Origin: a virus
Length of the DNA: 32,985 nucleotides
Virus record (IMG/VR): IMGVR_UViG_3300008267_000193
Coordinates: 1-32,985 of that record
Strand: one strand, 5' to 3'
Made by a program: the position numbers and the translations under genes. The first letter of the stretch is position 1, and each line of letters begins with the position of its first letter. Under the pieces are notes generated by a model that worked only from the letters and a program-made list of their open reading frames with translations, had not been told where the DNA came from and searched no databases. Shown in pieces: positions 1 to 31,434 of this stretch.

Positions 1-1686
1 AAAAATAATATATTCTATAAAGAAATAATATTAAGAAATTCTTATATAGCAAAAAATAGCATAAAAATTTATAAAAAAAATATTTCTAAGGAAAACGAAG
101 AGTATTACGTGATTGATTCGCCATCGAAAATATTAAAATTAGATGACGGTATAGAAAATAATAAATTTTTAATAACATGTAACGATGTGTTGTCAGACAA
201 GTATAATAAAGATAAATACATCGTTAAAACTAGTTTTTTGATAAGAGATTTCTCAGAAGAGCTAATAAGAAACAATATTCTATATGGTATAGATGATAGC
301 AAAAAATATATTTTAAAATACATAGATTTATTTGATAAATGTTCTAAAAATAGCTTAATAAAAGATGCTAATATTTATATTTTCGAGCAGGAATACGAAA
401 AAGAACAAACAAATATAAAAGAAAATATTAAAAATTTATCTTATATATTTGCTTTTTATACTGGTGGTGACTTAGAAAAGTACTACTCTTTATTCCTTTC
501 TATTTTTCATCCATTATTTACTAACGTTAGATTGTTAAATCTGCTATTAAACAAACTAGAGATTATTGAGAGAAATTTTAATTCTTTTTTGAATGACTTA
601 GATTTGTTTAAAATTTCTAATAATTCTTTTAAAAACATAAATAACATAAATCTTGAAAATGCCATAGAAGAAAACATTTCTAACAATGTTAATAAACCAT
701 ATTTATTATTGGAACACGAATTCTATACTACCGGCCTTTATGGAGAAAAAGATTTTCAAACATTAGATTATAGTTTTGATGCTGATTATGGGCTAGAAGT
801 TCTAGATACGAGAAAATATGAATCTAGAAAACAACAAATTTACGATGGTCTAAAAATTATAACAATACCAGAATTTAATGCTAGAAAATTAACAGAAGTA
901 ATTAAATACTATGGTATTGCTGACCAAAAAATATCTAACGAATTACAACACTTTAGTTGCCTAGGTATAGATTTAGGAAAAATACACTACCAGATAATCG
1001 ATCAATCTACCCTAACAAATAATGATTTTAATGATATAGTTCTATATTTAAATGATTATAATGATCGTCAATTTAATTTTTCTAAGCCTGAGAGTTACTA
1101 TTATCAATTATTGCAAAAGAATATAAATATAAAATCAATATCCTCAAGGAATAATGATTCTAGAAACCCAGCTCAAAGAACAACTGTTTTTGATCCAAAT
1201 ATAGATAGTAAAATAAAATCAATACAGTATATGTCCGATACCGGCATTAATGTTTTATACTATTTATTAGATAAAAATTCTTTACTAGAATTACCAAATA
1301 ATAGCATGCAGTATGAAGCATCTCTGGAAAGCGGGAAATATGGTACGTCCATATCACCCATAACGTCAGAATTAAAAGATAATTTTGAAGTAAAACCTAA
1401 GTTTATATCCTTATATAATAACTTTTACAATAATCAAATGATAGAATCAGGCAGTAACTATTCTATTTATCAATTACAACCAGCGTGTGTAAATTCAATA
1501 TTTGATAAAAAATTAATAACATATGATAAGTATTATGTAGTAGAAAACAAAAAATACATTCCCTACGAACAACAAACAATTAATGTTTATGAATTTGAAA
1601 AAGAAATTAATTTTAATACTTTACCAAAATTTTTAAATAGAAACATAGTTAATAGTAAATTTATAGTTAACTTAGAAGACTTATAA
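1..1686 (+). CDS. Large virion structural protein, 5' partial
   Basis: The reading frame is open from the first base of the window (frame 1). The 36 codons before the GTG at 109 read as plausible protein, so the gene very probably starts outside the window; 561 residues are visible. The product is rich in Asn, Lys, Ile and Tyr, with no signal peptide or membrane segment. A stretch around residues 170-225 (YIFAFYTGGDLEKYYSLFL onward) is helical and ends in a leucine-rich segment. No enzymatic motif is visible. The next gene starts 2 bases after its stop, which suggests translational coupling. The position ahead of other structural genes and the resemblance to long, poorly characterised virion proteins of marine phages make a structural role likely. 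The exact role is unknown. Confidence 0.6.
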   Translation, partial: KNNIFYKEIILRNSYIAKNSIKIYKKNISKENEEYYVIDSPSKILKLDDGIENNKFLITCNDVLSDKYNKDKYIVKTSFLIRDFSEELIRNNILYGIDDSKKYILKYIDLFDKCSKNSLIKDANIYIFEQEYEKEQTNIKENIKNLSYIFAFYTGGDLEKYYSLFLSIFHPLFTNVRLLNLLLNKLEIIERNFNSFLNDLDLFKISNNSFKNINNINLENAIEENISNNVNKPYLLLEHEFYTTGLYGEKDFQTLDYSFDADYGLEVLDTRKYESRKQQIYDGLKIITIPEFNARKLTEVIKYYGIADQKISNELQHFSCLGIDLGKIHYQIIDQSTLTNNDFNDIVLYLNDYNDRQFNFSKPESYYYQLLQKNINIKSISSRNNDSRNPAQRTTVFDPNIDSKIKSIQYMSDTGINVLYYLLDKNSLLELPNNSMQYEASLESGKYGTSISPITSELKDNFEVKPKFISLYNNFYNNQMIESGSNYSIYQLQPACVNSIFDKKLITYDKYYVVENKKYIPYEQQTINVYEFEKEINFNTLPKFLNRNIVNSKFIVNLEDL

Positions 1687-1687
1687 A

Positions 1688-3874
1688 ATGTTAAACAATA
1701 ATGCTGTATATATAAATATTGGTAATTACCTAGGTAACGTAGATGAAAGTACATACGATACTGGTTCTTATTTGACGTTTAACGTAGATCAGGTTAGATA
1801 TTACTCAAAAAATTACTGGATTTCCAGCGATAACGAACTAGTAGTTGCAAACCAAAAAAATAATAATTATATGTTCTCTCTGGAACATATCGATAGTGGT
1901 TCAGTAGTATTAATAGCAAATAAAGAAAAATTTTCTAATTTAAAAATTAACAATAATGGTATTTTAGAGAATATTTTTGATCCTATTTCTTGGGAATCTT
2001 TTGCAAGAAAAGTTGGCCACGACAACAATGTTTACGAAGATTATTATCTAGAAATAGAGAAATTACTTGATTCTAAAAAAGAAGAGTTAGAAAAAAATAT
2101 AAAATATTTTAATAATAAATTTGTATATAACTTCTTTTCTGACAGATATGAATCTATATCTAATGATATATCGATTGATGATACAGAGCTCCCATCGTTT
2201 GTTAATTTTTTAAATTTTAAAAATAACAAAGATAATACGTATAAAAATATAAATCTTTCATTGGGAGGACTAATAGAAGATAATTATGTTGAATCTGTAT
2301 TGTTATCAACAGATCAAGAAAATATAAAAAAGTATTTTGAAAAATATTCTGATGTTATTATGCGTGACTATGGTTCTTTATTAATTTCATCGTTTAATAA
2401 AGATAATTATAGGGTTAATATAAACAACATTTTACAAGAACAAATTAAATACATTACAGATGTACCATTCCCATTTTATGCAGATATTAAAATAAATAAT
2501 CCATCTTCCAAACAGAAATTATTTTTAAACGGAATCCTAAATTATAAAAAAATTTCTGATGACATCCTGTTTCATTTCCAGAAAAGAACAGAATTTGAAT
2601 CCACAGAACCGTTTATTGTAAAAGACGAATCTTTAACCAATCAAACAATAATAAATTATGATGTAAAAGAGTGGATAGAAAGAGAATTAACCGGACTATT
2701 AAATCCAGGATCAGCAGGAGATGAAAGGATTATAGAAGAAACAGATCGTAACTTTAAAGATGTAGAATATGCTTCTTTAATAAATTATATTAAAAATACT
2801 ATAAAACCTACTGTTAGAAAATACTCCGAACTACAGACAAAATCATGCTACAGTGAGGTTGTATTATATAAGATAGAAAAAAGATTATTTAAAGGCGATA
2901 ATCAGCCATTACAAGAATTTTGGTTCCAACCAAATAATATAGATTATTTAAGACTAATAGATACACAAATATCTTACGAAAAAGAATATCACTATGACAT
3001 ATTTGCTTATACCTTTGTTGTGGGCAATCAATACTCTTACCAGTTATATGATTATACAAGCAGTGAATTAGAGAGATTACAAGATATAAACAATGGAATA
3101 TATAAATTACAAGTAAAAAATAGCCCCACGTATAAAATTTTAAAAATTCCATTGGCTTATTTGCAAGGTGCTGTTCACGAATATCCTTTAACAAAACCAC
3201 AAATAAAAATAGATAACGAAGAGAATAATATAGTCTTTAATATTCTACAATCTAAATCAGAATCACTAGAGAATTTTAAAATTGTAGAAAATAACGATTT
3301 TACAATATTTGATAAAATTAGAAATTCTCAACAAAATTCAGAGCAAGACAAGATAAAATCAATAAATACTAGTGACACAAGAAAGACCGTGGAGATATAC
3401 AAAACCATGGTTAAGCCAATAAGTTCAATATCTTTTCAGGGTAAAAAGTATAAAACTATTGTATTGGATAATCAGACGTTTATAAAAGACGAAATATTAA
3501 CAAATATAAAGTATTATTATATGTTTAGATTTTTAAATAATCACAATACCCCCTCTAATATTTCTAATATTTATGAAATAGAGCTAAAAGAGGAAGATGG
3601 TTATATCTATTTACAGACCCAAGAAGTCGACCTAGAGCAAAAATTAGAAAAAAATATTTATAAAAATTTCAAAAGATACCTTCTAATAAGACCCAGTATT
3701 GTACAAACTCAAGTAAATTCAAGAGTGATAGTTAATTCTATTGAAGATGTAAATCTTGGACCCAATAAAGAATCCATGTGGGGTAAGGACTTTATAGTAC
3801 GTATAACTTCTAAAAATTCTAATAGAGTTTTAGAATTTAATCTTAAATCAATAATAAATCGGAAAAAAGAATAA
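1688..3874 (+). CDS. Large virion structural protein (728 aa)
   Basis: The start ATG lies one base after the previous stop, with only a weak purine-rich SD (agaaga). No catalytic motif or membrane segment is seen. Around residues 385-450 there is a beta-rich segment (VVLYKIEK, then LIDTQISYEKEYHYDIFAY and FVVGNQYSY) that looks like a fibronectin-type strand pattern. The C-terminus (MWGKDFIVRITSKNSNRVLE, about residues 697-716) is a conserved-looking ending. From memory, similar segments occur in structural proteins of marine T4-like phages, but I could not search for them. Very AT-rich with Asn/Lys-heavy composition, matching the preceding gene. Likely a baseplate, neck or tail component; the specific role is unknown. 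Confidence 0.6.
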   Translation: MLNNNAVYINIGNYLGNVDESTYDTGSYLTFNVDQVRYYSKNYWISSDNELVVANQKNNNYMFSLEHIDSGSVVLIANKEKFSNLKINNNGILENIFDPISWESFARKVGHDNNVYEDYYLEIEKLLDSKKEELEKNIKYFNNKFVYNFFSDRYESISNDISIDDTELPSFVNFLNFKNNKDNTYKNINLSLGGLIEDNYVESVLLSTDQENIKKYFEKYSDVIMRDYGSLLISSFNKDNYRVNINNILQEQIKYITDVPFPFYADIKINNPSSKQKLFLNGILNYKKISDDILFHFQKRTEFESTEPFIVKDESLTNQTIINYDVKEWIERELTGLLNPGSAGDERIIEETDRNFKDVEYASLINYIKNTIKPTVRKYSELQTKSCYSEVVLYKIEKRLFKGDNQPLQEFWFQPNNIDYLRLIDTQISYEKEYHYDIFAYTFVVGNQYSYQLYDYTSSELERLQDINNGIYKLQVKNSPTYKILKIPLAYLQGAVHEYPLTKPQIKIDNEENNIVFNILQSKSESLENFKIVENNDFTIFDKIRNSQQNSEQDKIKSINTSDTRKTVEIYKTMVKPISSISFQGKKYKTIVLDNQTFIKDEILTNIKYYYMFRFLNNHNTPSNISNIYEIELKEEDGYIYLQTQEVDLEQKLEKNIYKNFKRYLLIRPSIVQTQVNSRVIVNSIEDVNLGPNKESMWGKDFIVRITSKNSNRVLEFNLKSIINRKKE

Positions 3875-3879
3875 AAACA

Positions 3880-3893
3880 TCTAATTATAAAAG
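3880..3893 (+). promoter_or_regulatory. Promoter-like motif TCTAATTATAAAAG
   Basis: An AT-rich element matching the ACTAATTATA core seen before other virion genes (13100, 15423, 21776). It sits 16 bases before the start at 3909. Possible phage late promoter element; inferred only from recurrence in intergenic gaps. Confidence 0.3.
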
Positions 3894-3908
3894 AACAGAG
3901 GGATATAA

Positions 3909-4880
3909 ATGGCTTCTTTTTTACAAAATAACGGCGATATCATACTAGATGCGGTGCTAACTGATTACGGCAGAAGACTGCTAGCCAGAGGCGATGGATC
4001 ATTTAAAATAGCTAAATTTGCGTTTGGTGATGACGAGATCGATTATGGTCTTTTTAAATCAAAAGAAGTATCTGTAAATCAAGATGTTGATATTATGAAT
4101 ACACCAATTCTAGAAGCTTTTACAAATAACGCTGCTTCTATGAAGAGCCAATTAATTACATTGGGCATAGATAATGTACTATTCTTACCTGTGCTAAAAT
4201 TAAAAAATAATAATGATAATACAATAGGTGATTTCGGAACACCATCCACGGTATACAGCGGATATGTAGTACCGATAGATAGTAACATAAATAATACCTC
4301 TACGTATTCTTCTTACGCTCTAACCGGAACAGTCCAATATAGCTACATCGATGGCGTATTAAATGTTTCCAACAAACACATTGTAATAGACCAAGGATTA
4401 GATTCTGATAAACTAAATTCTTTACAGAGCCTAAAAGATACATCACCAATGCTATATGAAACAGAGTATAATATATATGTTGATAATAGGTTCTGCTCTG
4501 TAGGCAAAACAATAGATGGTACGCTATCTTCGCTAAGACCACTCAGCGTTGATGACGATAATATAGCTGTTTATAAGTTAACCGAACAATCATTGATGAA
4601 CAACACAACATTCGTCACACAGATTAAACCAGATACGGATATAACAAAGAGTAACAGTGTTATAGCTGGCACGAAGGGATCTAGATTAATGTTTACTCTT
4701 GTTCCTAATGGTAATTTGTTATATACAAATACAATGTTCGATAAATATGGCAAAATATTAAACTTAAATAGCAACCAGCCTTCTAAACAATTTAGAACAC
4801 TAAAAATGCCCGTAAGAGTAGTAGGTGTGACAACTGGATATTCACTTGACATGAACGTAATGTTCGCTAAAGTTATCTAA
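3909..4880 (+). CDS. Virion structural protein (MASFLQNNGDIILDAVLTD family)
   Basis: 323 residues. A good SD (GAGGG) precedes the ATG. The N-terminus (MASFLQNNGDIILDAVLTD, then GRRLLARGDGSFKIAKFAFG and DDEIDYGL) is a characteristic opening I associate with a virion protein shared by cyanophages and other marine T4-like phages; this is recall, not a search. The C-terminal half is beta-rich and ends FRTLKMPVRVVGVTTGYSL, compatible with an assembled structural protein. No signal peptide or membrane segment. It is followed 16 bases later by another structural gene that also begins MAS. A tail, neck or baseplate role is inferred; which one cannot be told. Confidence 0.65.
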   Translation: MASFLQNNGDIILDAVLTDYGRRLLARGDGSFKIAKFAFGDDEIDYGLFKSKEVSVNQDVDIMNTPILEAFTNNAASMKSQLITLGIDNVLFLPVLKLKNNNDNTIGDFGTPSTVYSGYVVPIDSNINNTSTYSSYALTGTVQYSYIDGVLNVSNKHIVIDQGLDSDKLNSLQSLKDTSPMLYETEYNIYVDNRFCSVGKTIDGTLSSLRPLSVDDDNIAVYKLTEQSLMNNTTFVTQIKPDTDITKSNSVIAGTKGSRLMFTLVPNGNLLYTNTMFDKYGKILNLNSNQPSKQFRTLKMPVRVVGVTTGYSLDMNVMFAKVI

Positions 4881-4896
4881 TAAAGTAGGATAAAAA

Positions 4897-5979
4897 ATGG
4901 CTTCTTCATATAAATATTTTTCTGACCACGACAGAGTAGTAGCAACAAATAACTTAACAGAAGTTGTTTCAAACGAACGCGGATCCGTATGGGCAAGCTC
5001 TAGTTACGCTCCTAAATATTTTACTCAATATGGTTCAGGAACAGTAGATTTCGCTACCAGCAAAAGAGTATTTGATGTAACATTTGGTAGAAGTTCACAA
5101 ACTACAAATGCAGAGTACTCAAATACAAACTATGACCCAGAAAAAAATATTTATAATCAATTCGCTAAAATACTACTTGGGCATGACTCAAGTAATAATA
5201 TCAATAAGTTCAGCCTAGAAGAAACAGAAGCATCGGTTTTACATAATGCATATTTTATAAACTTTTCTAGATCACAATTCAAAGATGAAATAAAAGAAGG
5301 GTCTGTTTCTATAAAAATCAATGTCAGCGGAGCTGTGAATATTAATTTAGTGGATAGCGGATCTTCTGGTACCGACATACGAGAATGTGTGGCTGGTCAT
5401 TATGGAAAATTATTTGCTACTGCTTCTTCTACAAGCGATACTTCTTCTCTAGTATTCGCTGGCGGAGAAAAGATCGAAGGTTTAGTTTTTTATGAGGCTG
5501 GTATCGCCGTAGTATCACCATATATTTTCTCACAATATTCAACAGATGCAAATCCATCAGGAAGCAATGATTATTTACACTCTAACTCTTTAGGGGTGCT
5601 AAATAGCGCAGCGCCAGTAGTCAGTGGGACTTTTGATATACGTAAACAAATAGTTTCAGGCTCGATAGACGAAGATAATTATGCCCTAACCACACATCTT
5701 TTAACGGCTAGTTACCATGCCAATACAGAGCTAAATTCAACAATTTATTTCTGCCGTGCATATAATCATGAGTTTAACTACTCTTCCAACCCCACGTATT
5801 TAAATAATAGTGAAATAGTAATAAAAGATGGTGATCCAGAAACCCCTCCAAGGGCCTATATAACAACAGTTGGTTTATATAGTGATGATAATCAACTATT
5901 AGCGGTTGCTAAATTATCAGAACCTATATTAAAGACTCCTGAGAATGAGTTAATAGCCCGTGTCCGTTTAGACTTTTAG
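4897..5979 (+). CDS. Virion structural protein, paralogue of the 6306 gene product
   Basis: 360 residues; SD AGGAT before the ATG. The C-terminus (NHEFNYSSNPTYL, then YITTVGLYSDDNQLLAVAKL, ending ARVRLDF) aligns in order with that of the 6306-7211 product (NELNHSNDPTYI, FITKIGLYDEDKKLIAVGSL, ending FKLKIDF), so the two are paralogues. The middle contains a beta-rich region (SVSIKINVSG; GLVFYEAGIAVVSPYIF) that also has a counterpart there (SIELNYYLSGG; GIVLYKEGFILIN). Serine/threonine-rich, with no membrane segments. The general pattern matches virion proteins of T4-like marine phages. Specific location in the particle unknown. Confidence 0.6.
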   Translation: MASSYKYFSDHDRVVATNNLTEVVSNERGSVWASSSYAPKYFTQYGSGTVDFATSKRVFDVTFGRSSQTTNAEYSNTNYDPEKNIYNQFAKILLGHDSSNNINKFSLEETEASVLHNAYFINFSRSQFKDEIKEGSVSIKINVSGAVNINLVDSGSSGTDIRECVAGHYGKLFATASSTSDTSSLVFAGGEKIEGLVFYEAGIAVVSPYIFSQYSTDANPSGSNDYLHSNSLGVLNSAAPVVSGTFDIRKQIVSGSIDEDNYALTTHLLTASYHANTELNSTIYFCRAYNHEFNYSSNPTYLNNSEIVIKDGDPETPPRAYITTVGLYSDDNQLLAVAKLSEPILKTPENELIARVRLDF

Positions 5980-5995
5980 TTTTGAAGGACTATAG

Positions 5996-6211
5996 ATGAC
6001 CAACAATAATGTTCATCAAAGTAGAAATACTTTAAATAACTCTGCTAAATCTACTAGCAGAGTTAAATTGAACATGTACGGCGGTGTTTTAAAGGGTAAT
6101 ATCATAACGGAGCCAATATTTCCACCGCCGCCACCACCACCGATAGTTTGCGAAATAGATGCATTAGATTTTAGTTGTGCAGATAATTCAGAGTATATTG
6201 GGGTGATATAG
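5996..6211 (+). CDS. Small protein with polyproline run, unknown function
   Basis: 71 residues; SD GAAGGA seven bases before the ATG supports the start. The N-terminal half is polar (Asn/Ser/Thr). Residues about 43-49 are an uninterrupted seven-proline run followed by IVCEIDALDFSCADNSEYIG, which carries two cysteines. No signal peptide. It lies between two paralogous structural genes and directly before a strong terminator, so it is probably the last gene of a structural transcript. A short linker or decoration protein of the virion is possible but unproven. Confidence 0.55.
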   Translation: MTNNNVHQSRNTLNNSAKSTSRVKLNMYGGVLKGNIITEPIFPPPPPPPIVCEIDALDFSCADNSEYIGVI

Positions 6212-21871: not shown

Positions 21872-23194
21872 ATGGCTAACATCTTCAATAATATTAAAGT
21901 TTTAACAGAGCTAGAAGTTAAAAATACGGCAACAATGAAGGAAGGTCTTATTGTTTCCGGCAGTCACAGTGGATCAACTGGTCTAACAGTCAAGAATGAT
22001 GCAATAATTGAAGGACAACTTACTGTTGGCGGCAACGTAGTAAACACAGGATATGCACAAGTTGGTGCATTAGTTGTTGATGGTGTAACCGACATCAGTG
22101 GTTCATTGATTGTAACAGGTAGCGGGTATATAACAGAAGGTCTTGATATAACTGGCGGTGGCTTAGATGTAACTGGTGTTGCAACATTCAATAATGCAAT
22201 TAGCGGCGCTGCAAGTTTAGATATAGTTGGTAACATAAAAGCCTCTGGTGACGTATCTGGTAGCACGGGTCACTTCTCTAATTTAACAGCCGACGCACTA
22301 AATGTCAACTCCCTATACCTACCAGGACAATTTGGTGTATCTGGTTCTGCACAATTAGGTCAAAATAACAGCTCTATTATCACCATAGCCGGTCAAGTAT
22401 CAGCATCAGCTGGTATTGAAGTTACAACCGGTGGATTCAATGCTGCAAACGGTACAGGTTATAAACTAAAAGGTGAAGAAGCACTAAAAGCAAATGGTAA
22501 TAAATTCATACTACAAAGCGGCTCACTTAACAAGATACATTTAGGTGATCTTGGTTACGGCGGTGGTATGGCCGGTAATCAAGGTATCAAAGTATTTTCA
22601 AAAGATGCAACAGCAGTTGTTGGTCCAAGACTATTTGCTTCATTAAGCGATGGTACAGCAAACCAACTTGATATAACAGCTTCATACAGCAAACTATATA
22701 GCACAGCTGGTGATGTGTTATTAAGTGGTTCAAGTGGTATCTATGCCGAAAGCAACCTAGTTGTTGAAAAACAATTAAAACTATCAGGTAGTGCAGACTT
22801 CAAGAACATATCATCAGTAACACGCGATGGAAACGGTTTATATGATGTTGCAGCGGCTATTAGCGCTCTTGATGATGTTATCAATACCGAAGACCGCAAC
22901 TATGGCAAGATGCGTTTTGCTAAAAGCGGATCATTAAATGGCTCAACAGTATCGTTTAACTTAGTAGATGAAGGTGCCGACTCTGTATTTTTCGGAATAG
23001 CTCAAATAAACTACCTAGTAGCAGATGTTATGGTACGTATATCATCAACAGAAGCGTGGACAAACGATCTAACCTCAGTTCAAATATACAATAACGAAGG
23101 TATTATATCAGTAGATCTAGATGTTCCAGCGGCAGAAGCAGGCTGGGAGTACCGTATGATCATCGTTAACGAAAACGGTGAAATGTTTATATAG
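21872..23194 (+). CDS. Repetitive fibre protein with WTNDL C-terminal domain
   Basis: 440 residues. The ATG at 21872 is 11 bases after the SD; a nearer ATG at 21867 is out of this frame. N-terminus MANIFNNIKVLTELEVKNTA parallels those of the 13199 and 23766 products (KVLTQL, KVLTDL). A middle of short beta repeats follows (LDVTGVATFNNAISGAASLD). The C-terminal domain from about residue 323 (YDVAAAISALDDVINTEDRN, then EAWTNDLTSVQI) is shared with those two proteins. No membrane segment. Probably a fibre or decoration subunit. It has its own leader and terminator. Confidence 0.68.
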   Translation: MANIFNNIKVLTELEVKNTATMKEGLIVSGSHSGSTGLTVKNDAIIEGQLTVGGNVVNTGYAQVGALVVDGVTDISGSLIVTGSGYITEGLDITGGGLDVTGVATFNNAISGAASLDIVGNIKASGDVSGSTGHFSNLTADALNVNSLYLPGQFGVSGSAQLGQNNSSIITIAGQVSASAGIEVTTGGFNAANGTGYKLKGEEALKANGNKFILQSGSLNKIHLGDLGYGGGMAGNQGIKVFSKDATAVVGPRLFASLSDGTANQLDITASYSKLYSTAGDVLLSGSSGIYAESNLVVEKQLKLSGSADFKNISSVTRDGNGLYDVAAAISALDDVINTEDRNYGKMRFAKSGSLNGSTVSFNLVDEGADSVFFGIAQINYLVADVMVRISSTEAWTNDLTSVQIYNNEGIISVDLDVPAAEAGWEYRMIIVNENGEMFI

Positions 23195-23219
23195 TTAATT
23201 TCTAATCTACTGTATAATT

Positions 23220-23260
23220 AAGGGAGCAGCGGGTTGATCCTGCTGCTCCTTTAATATTTT
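23220..23260 (+). terminator. Factor-independent terminator
   Basis: GGAGCAGCGGG (23223-23233), loop TTGAT, CCTGCTGCTCC (23239-23249), 11 pairs with one G-U, then TTTAATATTTT. It ends the 21872 transcript. Confidence 0.85.
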
Positions 23261-23269
23261 GGTGAGTTT

Positions 23270-23479
23270 ATGAAAAGAAAAGTAACATATCTTGTAAAAT
23301 ACATGGATCATATAATAAAAGAAATACTGATTCACACAAAAGATATGAAAAGTCAAGCTCAGTTGTTAAAAAATCGTCAATATTTGATAGATGCCGTTGA
23401 AAAACTTGAAAAAAAATATGATAATATTATATCAGATATACAAAATGATATAGAAAGCGTGGACGAAGATGAAATATAG
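23270..23479 (+). CDS. Small coiled-coil protein, unknown
   Basis: 69 residues, preceded by a GGTGAG SD. Highly charged and predicted helical, with heptad-like spacing (AVEKLEKKYDNIISDIQNDI). No cysteines or membrane segment. Overlaps the next gene by 11 bases, which suggests coupled translation. It follows a terminator, so it probably has its own promoter or depends on readthrough. It could be a chaperone for fibre assembly, given its place among fibre genes, but nothing in the sequence proves that. Confidence 0.5.
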   Translation: MKRKVTYLVKYMDHIIKEILIHTKDMKSQAQLLKNRQYLIDAVEKLEKKYDNIISDIQNDIESVDEDEI

Positions 23480-23723
23480 TTTTAATTTTTTACAAGTAAC
23501 AAACTGGTTGTATGTTTGCAGAGAAAATATCAAAAAAATACGTGATCAGGTGTTAAAAGAGGAGCTTACTAAAGAAAAAGCACTTGAAATGTTAATAAAT
23601 GAGAAACGCCGTATATCCACTCTTAAAGATATACTTAACCGTAAAGTTAGGTTACATGGTATATCAAATGATTTTCTTAAAAACCTTAAAGAAATCAAGA
23701 AAGAATATGGTGTCGAAGACTAA
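23469..23723 (+). CDS. Small helical protein, unknown
   Basis: 84 residues, mostly helical and basic (MKYSFNFLQVTNWLYVCREN, then long Lys/Glu-rich helices, ending YGVED). The start lies within the end of the previous gene; its SD (GACGAAGATG) is weak, so translation probably depends on coupling. No recognised domain. It pairs with the 69-residue protein upstream, and the two may act together. Confidence 0.5.
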   Translation: MKYSFNFLQVTNWLYVCRENIKKIRDQVLKEELTKEKALEMLINEKRRISTLKDILNRKVRLHGISNDFLKNLKEIKKEYGVED

Positions 23724-23765
23724 ATTTGACACTATTTAGGGTAATAAAGAGTAAGGAGCGGTAGT

Positions 23766-24392
23766 ATGGCCGTCAAGCCAGTTAAAGTTTTGACAGATCT
23801 GCTTACTAAAAAGCAGATTCTAAAACAAGATCTAGAAGGAAATATACTTTTTAGAGTATCCGGATCGTTAAATAACGGTGTGGTTAGTTCTTCATTACCT
23901 ATAACTGGGTCTGGCGGTCTTTTCTACAATTTAAATACTAAAACTAATACAGTTTTTGATAATATTAACGTAATAACCGGTTCTACTACCGGTGTTTATA
24001 ATGTAGACCAAGCATTTCACGCTGTAGATACTGCTATAACAGATGTTAAGAATTTGATCGCTGGTGAGGATTCACAGGCGTCATCGGCGTATAAACGTTT
24101 ACGGTACAAAGAGGTAGGATTTTTTAGTAGTGATGGCACTGCCGAAATCGTATTACCAAAAACTCAACTAGGGTCACCAGCATTTCCCGTATCATCAATG
24201 GATTTTGTTAATTTATCAGTTATGGTCAAAGATGGAGACGCTTGGACCAATGATTTATTATCAATAAATATAGTAAGCGGCGGTGTTGGTGACGACGAAA
24301 TACATGTACTATTAGATGCACCAGCGCTATCCGACACAGATCAGTATAGAATACTAGCAATTAATGAAAATCCAGATGATTATCTGGTATAA
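23766..24392 (+). CDS. Short virion protein with WTNDL C-terminal domain
   Basis: 208 residues; strong SD TAAGGAG upstream. N-terminus MAVKPVKVLTDLLTKKQILK resembles the KVLT starts of the 13199 and 21872 products. From about residue 80 the protein carries the same C-terminal domain: YNVDQAFHAVDTAITDVKNL, then DAWTNDLLSINIVSGG and a D-x-YRILAINEN ending. It is essentially that domain with a short head and without the long repeat region. This suggests the domain is a fibre base or capping element. Role inferred from paralogy. Confidence 0.62.
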   Translation: MAVKPVKVLTDLLTKKQILKQDLEGNILFRVSGSLNNGVVSSSLPITGSGGLFYNLNTKTNTVFDNINVITGSTTGVYNVDQAFHAVDTAITDVKNLIAGEDSQASSAYKRLRYKEVGFFSSDGTAEIVLPKTQLGSPAFPVSSMDFVNLSVMVKDGDAWTNDLLSINIVSGGVGDDEIHVLLDAPALSDTDQYRILAINENPDDYLV

Positions 24393-27672: not shown

Positions 27673-28974
27673 ATGCACCGCATAATGCAAGTCAGCGACA
27701 CACACATTCTTACAAACAAGCGTCACGATGAATATCGTGAAGTGTTTTCTAAGATATATGAACTAGCACGTGAACAAAAAGTTACACATATTGTACATAC
27801 TGGTGATCTTTTTCATTCAAAACTACAATTAACACCAGAATGTGTTGCGTTAGCAGTTGAATTTCTGCGTAACCTATCAGAAATCGCACCTGTTTATATG
27901 ATATGTGGCAATCATGATTGCTCACTTAGATCAACTAAGAGACTTGATTCTATAACTCCTATTATAGACGCTATTAAAAGTGATAGAATTCACTACTTTA
28001 GAAAGTCCGGTGAGTATAATTTTGGAGATATAACGTTTGGAGCATTCTCAATGCTCGATCCAGACAACTATCCAAGACCAAGTGATCATTCAAAGATTAA
28101 TATAGCTCTTTATCATGGTTCTATAAGTGGGGTTATGACTGATTCTGGCTATGTCATTAGTCACGGTGACTGTGACGTTGAGATATTTAGAGGCTATGAT
28201 TACGGTCTTCTTGGCGATATTCATCTTTCCAACCAAAAAGTAGATGACGAAGGCAAGATCCGATATCCAGGTTCTACAATTCAACAGAACTTTGGTGAAA
28301 GTAATGATAAGGGCGTATTAATTTGGGATATACATGATAAAAATACGTTTGAATGTAAGCATTATGCATTTAAATGCCCAAAACCATTTATAACTCTTGA
28401 TCTAGACAGCGAAGGACGTTTTGATGAATGGCTAAAGCTACCAGTTGGGTCACGTATCAGACTAAATACCTTTTACAACCTAACTGCGGATAGGGTTAAA
28501 AACGCCATAGATGCCGTTAAAACGCGTTTTAAGCCAGAGAGTGTAACTTTTGTCAGCAAAGCACTAACTAATAAAGAAAACCTTGAGAAAGTATCCAATC
28601 TCTCTCGCATTATGAATCTACGAGATGTATCAGTTCAAGAAGAACTGATTGCAGAATATCTCAAACAATATAATCCATCTACAGAGATGCTTGATGGGGT
28701 ATATGAACTAAACCGCAAGTACAATTCTCAAGTAGAACACGGTGAAGATGTTGGCAGAAACATTAACTGGAGAATAAAATCTCTTGAGTGGGATAATTTG
28801 TTTAATTATGGAGAAGGTAATAGGATAGATTTTACAAAATTAAACGGAATTGTTGGAATTCTCGGTAAAAACTATTCTGGTAAATGCGTAGATGAAAAAA
28901 CAGAAATTGAAGTTGAATATGATGAAAAAGAAATTATTGCAAATTTAGGATATTTACCTGATTTCTTAAAATAA
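27673..28974 (+). CDS. 47: gp47 (Mre11/SbcD-like) nuclease fused to gp46 N-terminus and N-intein
   Basis: 433 residues; SD GAGG upstream. Residues 1-340 are a calcineurin-like nuclease with the metal ligands of the Mre11/SbcD/T4 gp47 family: D9 and H11 (SDTHI), D45 (HTGDLFH), N80-H81 (CGNHD), H148 (LYHGSI), and D182/H184 (GDIHL). Around residues 363-404 the chain continues into the start of a Rad50/SbcC/gp46 ATPase (IKSLEWDNLFNYGEGNRIDF, then GILGKNYSGK), so nuclease and ATPase are one polypeptide. The P-loop is broken after K404 by C405, the first residue of a 29-residue N-intein, and the gene stops there. The nuclease and ATPase process DNA ends for recombination-dependent replication. The remaining ATPase is encoded from 29137. 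Confidence 0.88.
   Translation: MHRIMQVSDTHILTNKRHDEYREVFSKIYELAREQKVTHIVHTGDLFHSKLQLTPECVALAVEFLRNLSEIAPVYMICGNHDCSLRSTKRLDSITPIIDAIKSDRIHYFRKSGEYNFGDITFGAFSMLDPDNYPRPSDHSKINIALYHGSISGVMTDSGYVISHGDCDVEIFRGYDYGLLGDIHLSNQKVDDEGKIRYPGSTIQQNFGESNDKGVLIWDIHDKNTFECKHYAFKCPKPFITLDLDSEGRFDEWLKLPVGSRIRLNTFYNLTADRVKNAIDAVKTRFKPESVTFVSKALTNKENLEKVSNLSRIMNLRDVSVQEELIAEYLKQYNPSTEMLDGVYELNRKYNSQVEHGEDVGRNINWRIKSLEWDNLFNYGEGNRIDFTKLNGIVGILGKNYSGKCVDEKTEIEVEYDEKEIIANLGYLPDFLK
28885..28971 (+). other. N-terminal half of a split intein (29 aa)
   Basis: Starts with Cys directly after the P-loop lysine and reads CVDEKTEIEVEY and so on to DFLK. This has the block A pattern of inteins (C1, T at position 6, alternating strand). 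It is far shorter than the 80-100-residue N-halves of canonical split inteins. It resembles the atypical N-proximal split of the AceL-TerL and VidaL type. Confidence 0.85.
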
Positions 28975-28988
28975 ATTTTCCTGGGTAA

Positions 28989-29024
28989 TTCATCTCCAGT
29001 GTGCCATTTACATGAGGAGATGAA
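28989..29024 (+). promoter_or_regulatory. RBS-sequestering hairpin
   Basis: TTCATCTCC (28989-28997) is perfectly complementary to GGAGATGAA (29016-29024), with an 18-base loop. The 3' arm covers the GAGGAG SD of the 18-codon relic ORF at 29027. Such hairpins silence homing endonuclease genes on early transcripts in T4-like phages (known for I-TevI). It may be a surviving control element of a lost endonuclease. Confidence 0.6.
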
Positions 29025-29026
29025 AA

Positions 29027-29083
29027 ATGAAATACTTAAATTGTATAGATTGTAAGAAAGAAAAAGTTAATATTAAAAAATAA
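29027..29083 (+). pseudogene. Relic of a homing endonuclease N-terminus (18 codons)
   Basis: Behind a good SD (GAGGAG at 29014-29019) is an ORF of MKYLNCIDCKKEKVNIKK and a stop. The CxxC plus KKEK/KVNI pattern is how zinc-finger HNH/Vsr-like phage homing endonucleases often begin. It lies exactly between the two intein halves, where fractured phage genes usually carry a free-standing homing endonuclease gene. The rest of such a gene is absent, so I read it as a deletion remnant. It could instead be a chance mini-ORF. Confidence 0.45.
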
Positions 29084-29136
29084 TTTTAATTGTTTTATGT
29101 CTAATAATATAGAGTTAATAAAAAAAAGGATTTTAC

Positions 29137-29508
29137 ATGAAAAAGAAAATAACAATAGCGCAAGCTTATAAACTGTTTAATCTTTCTAGAGACATAAATA
29201 TAAAAGTATTAACTCCTTATGGATATAAAAAAATCTTATGGTGTGACATAACTTCAAAAAATAGCACTGTTGTCAGAACAACGTTAGAAAACGGATGCTT
29301 TTTAGAATCCTCACCGGAACATCTACTTAAAATTAATAATAAAGATTTTAAAAAAATTATAGATTTAAAGCCAAACGATTGCGTACTAACATTTGATGGT
29401 AAAAGTAAGATAGTTTCTCAAGAAATTTTGAAACATAAAAAAGATCTATATGATATAGAAGTAGAAGATGTGCATCAATATTTTTCAAATGGAATAGTAT
29501 CGCATAAT
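29137..29508 (+). other. C-terminal half of a split intein (124 aa)
   Basis: Hint-fold features in order: strand NIKVLTPYGYKKI, block B with TTLENGCFLESSPEHLL (SxxH, H62, in place of the usual TxxH), block F (DLYDIEVEDVHQYF), block G ending NGIVSHN with penultimate H123 and terminal N124. The +1 residue is Ser, the Walker A serine. Colinear with the upstream 29-residue half, with no endonuclease domain. Confidence 0.88.
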
Positions 29509-31434
29509 TCTTCAGCAGGAATAGATACTCTCTTATATACTATTTTTAATACTACTTCTAAAAATAATCGCAAAAACTTAAATATCATCAATCAAAACCG
29601 TGAACGCGGTCGCGGAAAAGTAGTTATTGATATTGATGGAAATGAATATACTATCGAAAGAACATCAGAAAAGTATACTAAAAAAAGTAAAGGTGTTGAA
29701 ATAACAGAAGCAAAGACCGATGTTGAGTTTACTGGTATTGATGAATCAACTTTAACTGGTCTTGATCGTAGTGACACAGATAAAATTATTCGTAAGTATC
29801 TGGGCACCGTAGACGACTTTATGTTAACTTCTGCTGCAACACAATTTTCAGCACAATCGTTTATTTCAGAAGGTTCTACAAATCGCAAAGCAATTCTTGC
29901 TAAATTCCTTGATCTAGATCTTTTTGAAGCAAAATTCAAAGCAGCTAAATCAGAAGTAGCAGCTACTAAAGTGTTACTCAAGAAGCTAGAAACTATTGAT
30001 TACGAGAAAGAAATTAATGAAACAAAGGAATTAATAAAACTATCAGAAAAAAATATCGAATCTGCAAATCAAGAATTATTAGTTGTAAGTGATGAATTAA
30101 ATAAAAACAGACAAGAACTATTCTCAGTACAAAGTCAAATTAAGATTCTTGAAAAAGATAATACTAAACTAACTGATCTTCTCAAAAACAAAGATGGTTA
30201 TAGCCAAGCAATAAAAATTCTAAATGATAGAATAATTCAATGTGAATCTGAAATAAATAAATTAACCATGGAGTTATCTGGTCTACAACCAGATCTATCT
30301 GTTAACATTGAAGAACTATTATCAAATAAATCAAAAATAGATGCTAACTCTAAAACACTTGATGAACTTAGAGGTGAGCATGCACTTGTAAAACAACAAA
30401 ATAATACCCTTAAGGAAAGAATTAAATTACTATCTGAGGTTCCTTGCGGTACACAGTTTCCTAATTGTAAATTTATCAACAACGCACATACAGCTAATGA
30501 TAAAAAACCACAATCTGATAAAAAATTAATTAAAATTAATGCAGGTATAGACAAGTTATTAAAAGAACAAGCCGAACTAGACGCTGAGTCTGTATCTAAA
30601 AAGATAGACAGATACAATACAGCTTTATCTGTTCAACAAAAAATTAATAATTCAATAAAAGAAATTGAAGCTAGCATAGAAAAATGGAAGTATAAACTAG
30701 AGATTGGCGAAGAATCGCTAGAAAAAACTATTAAGGAACTTGTTGAGTTCAACAACTCAGACTCTGATAAGGATGTTTATGATACCCTTGTTAAATCAGA
30801 ACGTGAAATCAAACTGGCTATAAACAGTTTGGAAATGAATTATAGTGGTATTCAACAAAAAGTTACTAATCTATACAAAGAAAGCGGTTATCTTGTATCA
30901 AAGTTAGAAACACTTGAAGAACAAAAGCAAGAATTAGCTGAAAAACGAGCAGAATTTGGTGTATATGATCTGTTCTTGAAATGTATGCATCCAAACGGGA
31001 TCTCATATCAAGTAATTAAAAATAAACTACCAGTAATAAACGAAGAAATAAATAAAATATTAGCAAATGTTGTAGAATTTGAGGTTTATCTATTGAATGA
31101 TGATGATAAACTTGATATAATGATTAAACATCCAAAACACGAAGCTAGACCATTGGAGATGGGAAGTGGAGCAGAAAAATCATTAGCCTCAATAGCAATA
31201 AGATTAGCGTTTTTACAAGTTACAAGTTTACCAAAATCGGATTTTATAATTTTAGATGAACCAGGCACAAGCCTTGACCCAGATAACTTATCTGGATTTA
31301 TCCGTATCTTGGATCTAATTAAGTCATACTTTAAGACAGTAATCCTAATCAGCCATTTAGATGTTCTTAAAGATGCAGTAGATGTTCAGATCACGATTGA
31401 CCGCAGAGGCGACTATGCTTATGTCAACCAATAG
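29137..31434 (+). CDS. 46: C-intein plus gp46 (Rad50/SbcC-like) recombination ATPase
   Basis: 765 residues; SD AAGGA (29126-29130). Residues 1-124 are the C-intein. From S125 the gp46 ATPase resumes (SSAGIDTLLYTIFN), completing a Walker A with the upstream GKNYSGK. Long coiled coils occupy about residues 270-600, interrupted near the apex by C437-x6-C444 (PCGTQFPNCKF), a candidate zinc hook with wider spacing than the usual CxxC. Near the C-terminus are the ABC signature (GSGAEKS, 676-682), Walker B (FIILDE, D707-E708), the D-loop (SLDP) and the switch histidine H740 (LISHLD). After trans-splicing it would form one chain with gp47 that resects DNA ends and supports recombination-dependent replication. 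A good SD shows it is translated separately. Confidence 0.9.
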   Translation: MKKKITIAQAYKLFNLSRDINIKVLTPYGYKKILWCDITSKNSTVVRTTLENGCFLESSPEHLLKINNKDFKKIIDLKPNDCVLTFDGKSKIVSQEILKHKKDLYDIEVEDVHQYFSNGIVSHNSSAGIDTLLYTIFNTTSKNNRKNLNIINQNRERGRGKVVIDIDGNEYTIERTSEKYTKKSKGVEITEAKTDVEFTGIDESTLTGLDRSDTDKIIRKYLGTVDDFMLTSAATQFSAQSFISEGSTNRKAILAKFLDLDLFEAKFKAAKSEVAATKVLLKKLETIDYEKEINETKELIKLSEKNIESANQELLVVSDELNKNRQELFSVQSQIKILEKDNTKLTDLLKNKDGYSQAIKILNDRIIQCESEINKLTMELSGLQPDLSVNIEELLSNKSKIDANSKTLDELRGEHALVKQQNNTLKERIKLLSEVPCGTQFPNCKFINNAHTANDKKPQSDKKLIKINAGIDKLLKEQAELDAESVSKKIDRYNTALSVQQKINNSIKEIEASIEKWKYKLEIGEESLEKTIKELVEFNNSDSDKDVYDTLVKSEREIKLAINSLEMNYSGIQQKVTNLYKESGYLVSKLETLEEQKQELAEKRAEFGVYDLFLKCMHPNGISYQVIKNKLPVINEEINKILANVVEFEVYLLNDDDKLDIMIKHPKHEARPLEMGSGAEKSLASIAIRLAFLQVTSLPKSDFIILDEPGTSLDPDNLSGFIRILDLIKSYFKTVILISHLDVLKDAVDVQITIDRRGDYAYVNQ

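Follow-up and report, generated by a model that had tools for sequence, protein, structure and literature searches.

Natural split inteins of the atypical kind break close to their N-terminus, either after strand 2 (S1 type: VidaL, PolB16) or after helix 1 (S2 type: AceL, GOS) (PMC13014065; PMC10189870), and their N-terminal halves (IntN) range from 15 to 37 residues (PMC13014065). We analysed a stretch of viral DNA of 32,985 nucleotides (IMG/VR record IMGVR_UViG_3300008267_000193, positions 1 to 32,985; 'the window'), in which a phage gene for a single-chain Mre11-Rad50 protein is very probably interrupted by a natural split intein with an N-proximal split, probably of the S1 type, placed between the Lys and the Ser of the Walker A motif. 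Its IntN of 29 residues lies within the known range. An earlier, sequence-only reading of this DNA had proposed that the P-loop of a gp46/SbcC-type ATPase is interrupted by a naturally split intein whose break lies near its N-terminus; this is supported because of profile matches, a model with the Hint fold, intact junction residues, uninterrupted homologues and 27 related loci. The features of the locus are collected in Table 1.

Table 1. Features of the Mre11-Rad50 locus and its intein in the window
Feature	Position	Strand	Evidence or remark
N-extein, Mre11/SbcD nuclease domain and first Rad50 strands	27673..28884	+	Metallophos PF00149, 3.6e-12; PHROG 100 (SbcD-like), 1.4e-40
IntN, 29 residues, Cys1 and block A	28885..28971	+	residue-by-residue alignment with the IntN of 27 other loci
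Predicted RNA hairpin	28989..29024	+	dG -16.3, z -2.67; 3' arm over Shine-Dalgarno sequence GAGGAG (29014-29019)
18-codon open reading frame MKYLNCIDCKKEKVNIKK, putative remnant of a homing-endonuclease start	29027..29083	+	53 nucleotides after the IntN stop
Putative C-terminal remnant of an L109-type endonuclease, other frame	29055..29141	+	aligns to residues 360-388 of the 389-residue L109 frame
C-terminal half (IntC), 124 residues, blocks B, F and G, end VSHN	29137..29508	+	PF14890, TIGR01443, VidaL fold match
C-extein, remaining Rad50/SbcC ATPase including the stop codon	29509..31434	+	PHROG 77 (SbcC-like), 2.5e-45; 67% identity to L004

The intein halves are encoded by two separate open reading frames (ORFs) 162 nucleotides apart, with a stop codon (28972-28974) after IntN and a Shine-Dalgarno sequence (aagga, 29126-29130) belonging to the IntC gene. 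The upstream ORF (27673-28974, 433 residues) ends GILGKNYSGK, followed by CVDEKTEIEVEYDEKEIIANLGYLPDFLK and the stop; the Walker A residues GKNYSGK (28864-28884) close the N-extein, Cys1 is at 28885 and the IntN tail, EIIANLGYLPDFLK, is conserved. The first 124 residues of the downstream ORF (29137-31434, 765 residues) end HQYFSNGIVSHN (SNGIVSHN), after which Ser+1 at 29509 opens a C-extein that continues SSAGIDTLLYTIFNTTSKNNRKN and contains the coiled coil, the signature and Walker B (FIILDE). The residues of a class 1 intein are present (Cys1, Asn124 of IntC and Ser+1), and His62 of block B and the penultimate His123 of IntC are invariant in the family alignment. Joining the exteins yields a product of 1045 residues with the Walker A sequence GKNYSGKS, which exists only after joining. 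Gene coordinates, segment lengths and junctions given in the sequence-only reading are correct to the base, and the joined exteins, with the GKNYSGKS that it gave, align over their whole length with intein-less single-ORF homologues.

The upstream gene encodes an Mre11/SbcD nuclease fused to the start of Rad50; viral contigs and Microcystis phage Mel-JY01 have homologues in which one ORF carries both parts. The Mel-JY01 protein (WWT39521) has the same fused domain order as the window product; unlike the window it is a single ORF without an intein. Among 80 contigs fetched with an Mre11 profile, some of them near copies, 66 could be read by pattern (14 fell outside it and were left unread), and the P-loop is uninterrupted in 66 of these 66. 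Since the 66 readable close homologues all have one Mre11-Rad50 ORF, ligation would restore both Walker A and the single chain. The closest homologue, L004, shares 80% identity with the N-extein and 67% with the C-extein; against it the two exteins have dN/dS (ratio of non-synonymous to synonymous substitution rates) of 0.09 and 0.12 with synonymous sites near saturation, and judged by these ratios the window exteins are under purifying selection. Gene order around the locus is the same as in L004, L006, L015, L016 and L018. An assembly artefact that joined or broke genes would be conceivable for a source that is a single metagenomic viral contig, but this shared gene order and the recurrence of the same split in many independent contigs make it the least probable of the explanations considered.

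Alone, IntC matches Pfam Intein_splicing [PF14890, 6.1e-8, 33.1 bits, slightly under the cut-off of 35.8] and NCBIfam intein_Cterm (TIGR01443, 1.2e-6, above cut-off), and its sequence matches the solved inteins gp41-1 (2.1e-5), VidaL (8e-4) and CatC (1.4e-3) in the PDB. For structure prediction, the DNA from 28885 to 29508 was read through its seven stop codons (TAA and TAG as Gly) together with an alignment of relatives, giving a chain of IntN, a meaningless linker of 55 residues and IntC. AlphaFold scores for this chain are poor in the linker but reach about 90 or higher over almost the whole of IntN and IntC. In the PDB the model matches VidaL best (E 1.3e-10), with NrdJ-1, gp41-1 and other inteins next; 62 entries match at E <= 0.001, and most of those listed are inteins, the others including hedgehog and BIL domains, which belong to the same superfamily. 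L096, a contiguous relative and thus a natural protein, is modelled with a predicted local distance difference test score of 95.7 and also has VidaL as its best match (E 2.1e-10). The expectation that the halves are colinear with a complete Hint domain, and fold as one when predicted together, agrees with these models.

Both models place a helix at residues 14-21, after the first long strand and before the split point (at high confidence in the window), and both place the usual helix 1 in the C-terminal half. The strand order is that of S1, with the IntN helix 14-21 as an addition for which S1 splits have no description, and we read the modelled intein as an S1-type split with an added IntN helix. 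On these models the IntN would be a VidaL-like S1 half extended by a conserved tail of 13 residues, and not an AceL-type half split after helix 1.

Pattern searching with nothing but the IntC sequence gave no split relative, only an intein in a helicase-like gene (L011). A profile built from the window IntC, CatC and VidaL and run on viral contigs returned about 33 full-length relatives, and a second scan with an improved profile returned the same set together with L287 and more distant inteins. Including the window, 28 loci (27 further ones) can be read on both sides, a few of them near copies (such as L109 and L112). In 28 of 28 the intein stands between the Lys of a Walker A-like loop rich in glycine and a Ser or Thr; the HN end with the +1 Ser/Thr, and the junction residues, are likewise kept in 28 of 28. 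The search for IntN required a Cys after the Walker A-like loop, and every locus long enough gave one. Split members number 24 of the 28, with an IntN of exactly 29 residues in 22 and of 30 in two (L095, L101) and a tail EII.KLGFLPDELK or similar. The remaining four are contiguous, and both halves therefore belong to one domain.

Two sorts of host are found. One is the Mre11-Rad50 fusion or a similar long type, whose exteins are mostly SS...; the other is SbcC-like, its N-terminal ORF being shorter and its exteins TT... or TV... (L104: PHROG 77, 6.3e-35). In bacterial and archaeal genomes (GTDB) seven pattern matches were obtained, none of them a relative by tblastn, and cultured phages had only distant inteins, 28-41% identical, in terminase and a RecA-like gene. 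RecA-like and helicase-like genes of phages (gp204 of Salicola phage SCTP-2, L253, and L288-L300) contain further inteins of the broad VidaL/AceL-like class, several apparently split N-proximally. Distant relatives of IntC stand before other Walker A-like sequences (SVLLEALSFVLFGK, SSFIESFEYVLYGR, STLVDSIKLGLFGK) in L134 (7-288), L138 (4001-4324) and L309 (5001-5282); the gap of L138 has an L109-like endonuclease.

By the established chemistry of class 1 inteins, the window locus would work as follows. The two genes would be translated as separate proteins, and IntN, a strand with the conserved tail helix, would dock on IntC to complete one Hint domain. A thioester at Cys1, transfer to Ser+1, cyclisation of the Asn and an acyl shift would then join GKNYSGK to SSAGID in the 1045-residue Mre11-Rad50 chain. 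Because the break falls between the Lys and the Ser of Walker A, the P-loop cannot be intact before ligation.

This last point also bears on a two-piece protein that works unspliced, its gene having been broken by a homing endonuclease and a dead intein left at the break. Phage proteins in two pieces made by such breaks exist, as nrdA/mobE of phage Aeh1 shows (cited in PMC2988022), and the Mre11 part of L002 and of L122 is interrupted close to GDIH, an endonuclease-like ORF being present there and no intein recognised. An unligated window protein, however, would lack an intact P-loop; conservation of the junction residues in 28 of 28 loci and of IntN length in 24 of 24 split members is unexpected for a dead element, and the two halves are modelled as one confident Hint domain. 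We regard a heteromer of this kind as unlikely.

Some observations do weigh against splicing at the window locus. The profile check proposed for both segments succeeded for IntC only: the 29-residue IntN alone matched nothing in the Pfam and NCBIfam profiles, because it is too short. The halves in the window model were joined by an artificial read-through linker. Position His113 of block F varies within the family. The product reads GKSSAGID, one residue longer after GKSS than the close homologues (GKSSxxD), a possible sign of the relaxed constraint that a dead intein would allow. Exteins of the TT-type family show the same longer spacing, and the extra residue is therefore less likely to be a defect. 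Weighing these points, we retain the split intein as the best explanation of the locus.

The gap between the two window ORFs begins with the hairpin of Table 1. Similar hairpins precede the endonuclease starts of L095, L109 and L119, and homing endonucleases of the T4 type are known to have hairpins over their ribosome sites (PMC2988022). The 18-codon ORF behind it has a zinc-finger-like CxxC start and, judged by eye, resembles MKKICKTCKEEK of L109; endonuclease genes of the relatives start 52-77 nucleotides after the IntN stop. The single best score of the C-terminal remnant was equalled by one of 300 shuffles (none of 400 in an earlier run); a summed test over five C-termini, devised once the match was known, gave a score of 244, against 113 +/- 11, and none of 3000 shuffles reached 244. 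Because the match lies at the expected place and end, we read the gap as the deletion remnant of an endonuclease gene. The L095 gap holds a similar remnant (score 102, 0/300 shuffles); L100, L102 and L104, whose gaps are short, showed no significant relic. The late promoter TATAAATA was sought in the window gap and is absent, window counts being at chance. A homing-endonuclease gene probably once occupied the break and was then deleted down to its hairpin-covered start and last codons.

Joining at the level of RNA or translation, by an intron, bypass or stop read-through that yields a contiguous intein, could draw on the existence of contiguous relatives and on the common frame of the two window ORFs (252 nucleotides from Cys1 to Met). 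Other split members do not maintain this shared frame, the IntC gene has a start codon and Shine-Dalgarno sequence of its own, and the gap reads as an endonuclease relic. The lack of any Rfam match in the gap, permissive settings included, speaks against an intron, and the seven stops in the common frame against read-through or bypass. Such joining is very improbable, only marginally less so than the assembly artefact.

In 18 split relatives an endonuclease-like ORF of about 280-435 residues lies between the halves, and these ORFs are of three kinds; the gap of L287 is 1076 nucleotides. Recognised nuclease matches occur only in two of the types, GIY-YIG (L107, 1.2e-10) and one related to T7 endonuclease I (4.7e-4), the latter being a common C-terminal domain behind zinc-finger-like starts in L094, L109 and L119. 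For the type met most often (alignment A9, with L099 among others) neither Pfam nor the PDB gave a clear match; its motifs YDF...IIEYNGDxYHGNP...GFEVLVIWDSEY and a weak match to DUF559 suggest a Vsr-like nuclease. For all of these we infer endonuclease activity and homing.

Between the IntN stop and the endonuclease start, TT-type loci (L098-L125) have a recurrent stretch, TTTACCTTTTTxGTT ... GGTTATATTTATA, which can pair with the start region and is possibly a shared control element. The Mre11 part is broken just after the metal-binding motif GDIH in L002 (4001-5700) and L122 (1404-2800), with a similar layout in L098 and L117. Where read, an endonuclease-like ORF stands between the pieces, TnsA-like (PF08722) in L002 and with a weak DUF7487/TPD match in L122; with no recognised intein, this break is a second site at an active-site motif.

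In a tree of IntC, built on a short alignment and by itself not separating gain from loss, the TT-type members form a supported group, the contiguous L117 and L122 fall among split members that bear endonucleases, and the endonuclease-free L100, L102 and L104 are scattered (support 95/87 for a clade of six, 95/91 for L122 with L102). This favours repeated loss of the endonuclease and re-fusion of the halves; the tree does not settle the position of the window among the SS-type members. L104 (split) and L122 (contiguous) have exteins 95% and 92% identical and IntC only 80% identical, whereas L122 and L102 share IntC at 91% with exteins at only 48-54%. Given near-identical exteins with different IntC, inteins have therefore moved between hosts. 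The L104/L122 pair has the look of an intein replacement between close relatives. The window extein clusters with phages that have no intein (support 100 with L004), whereas the closest counterparts of its intein reside in exteins that are much more remote. This pattern agrees with acquisition by transfer in the window lineage; loss in all close relatives is a possible alternative.

A broader proposal, to which we give somewhat less than an even chance, is that these S1-split inteins form a mobile family specialised for the Walker A bond in Rad50/SbcC ATPases of phages. A homing endonuclease would split the intein, always at the same N-proximal point, where nucleases with unrelated folds would replace one another, and after nuclease loss the halves would either stay split (window, L100, L102, L104) or re-fuse (L117, L122). 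If so, intein splitting would be reversible and tied to gain and loss of the endonuclease, and the ATPase would have no activity before both halves have been produced. At one identical site the family shows contiguous members and split ones with an endonuclease, with a relic or with an empty gap, and the origin and reversal of splitting are therefore testable. Outside the locus, several large ORFs without a PHROG match lie beside tail and structural genes of the window (109-6211 and 21872-24392).

The sequence-only reading had missed that Mre11 and Rad50 are fused, that related loci form a family, that the gap contains a homing-endonuclease relic and that the split is probably of S1 type with a 13-residue tail. 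As a repair ATPase, the phage protein would have no intact P-loop until two gene products meet. A conserved split geometry whose IntN is short enough for chemical synthesis and bears a family-specific helix could be of use in protein ligation tools and in asking how the halves of split inteins recognise each other. The rarity of N-proximal splits holds as far as the literature could be checked. No published description of an intein in phage Rad50/SbcC was found in a limited literature that did not include the first reports of fractured genes or of atypical splits; within that literature both the host protein and the insertion site, the Rad50/SbcC Walker A, appear undescribed.

Among known arrangements, fractured genes, reportedly described by Dassa in 2009, consist of an extein-IntN gene, a free-standing endonuclease gene and an IntC-extein gene. 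This arrangement, with an endonuclease-like gene in the gap, is seen in 18 relatives of the window intein; the window differs in keeping only a putative relic of the endonuclease, and the family in its Rad50 host and in having three kinds of gap gene with one intein. VidaL (PDB 6vgv, S1 type, IntN of 16 residues) is the best fold match and also matches the window IntC in sequence; both are Cys-dependent, and the window intein appears to be split, as VidaL is, in the loop after the second strand, but VidaL lacks the conserved helical tail that extends the window IntN to 29 residues, and the window host is Rad50/SbcC. AceL-TerL, GOS-TerL and the engineered CatN/CatC (PDB 6dsl, S2) likewise combine a short IntN with a long IntC similar in sequence to that of the window; they are split after helix 1 (PMC13014065) and reside in terminases, whereas the window has a Rad50 host and helix 1 in the C-terminal half. 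PolB16 OarG is also S1-type with a short IntN (15 residues), but has Ser1 and Ser+1, a DNA polymerase host and an IntC of 168 residues (PMC10189870). The phage-type split inteins gp41-1, the top PDB sequence match, and NrdJ-1 differ in their canonical split into a long IntN and a short IntC (PMC13014065). The kind of element is known; its host site, the helix of the 29-residue IntN and the set of states within one family appear to be new.

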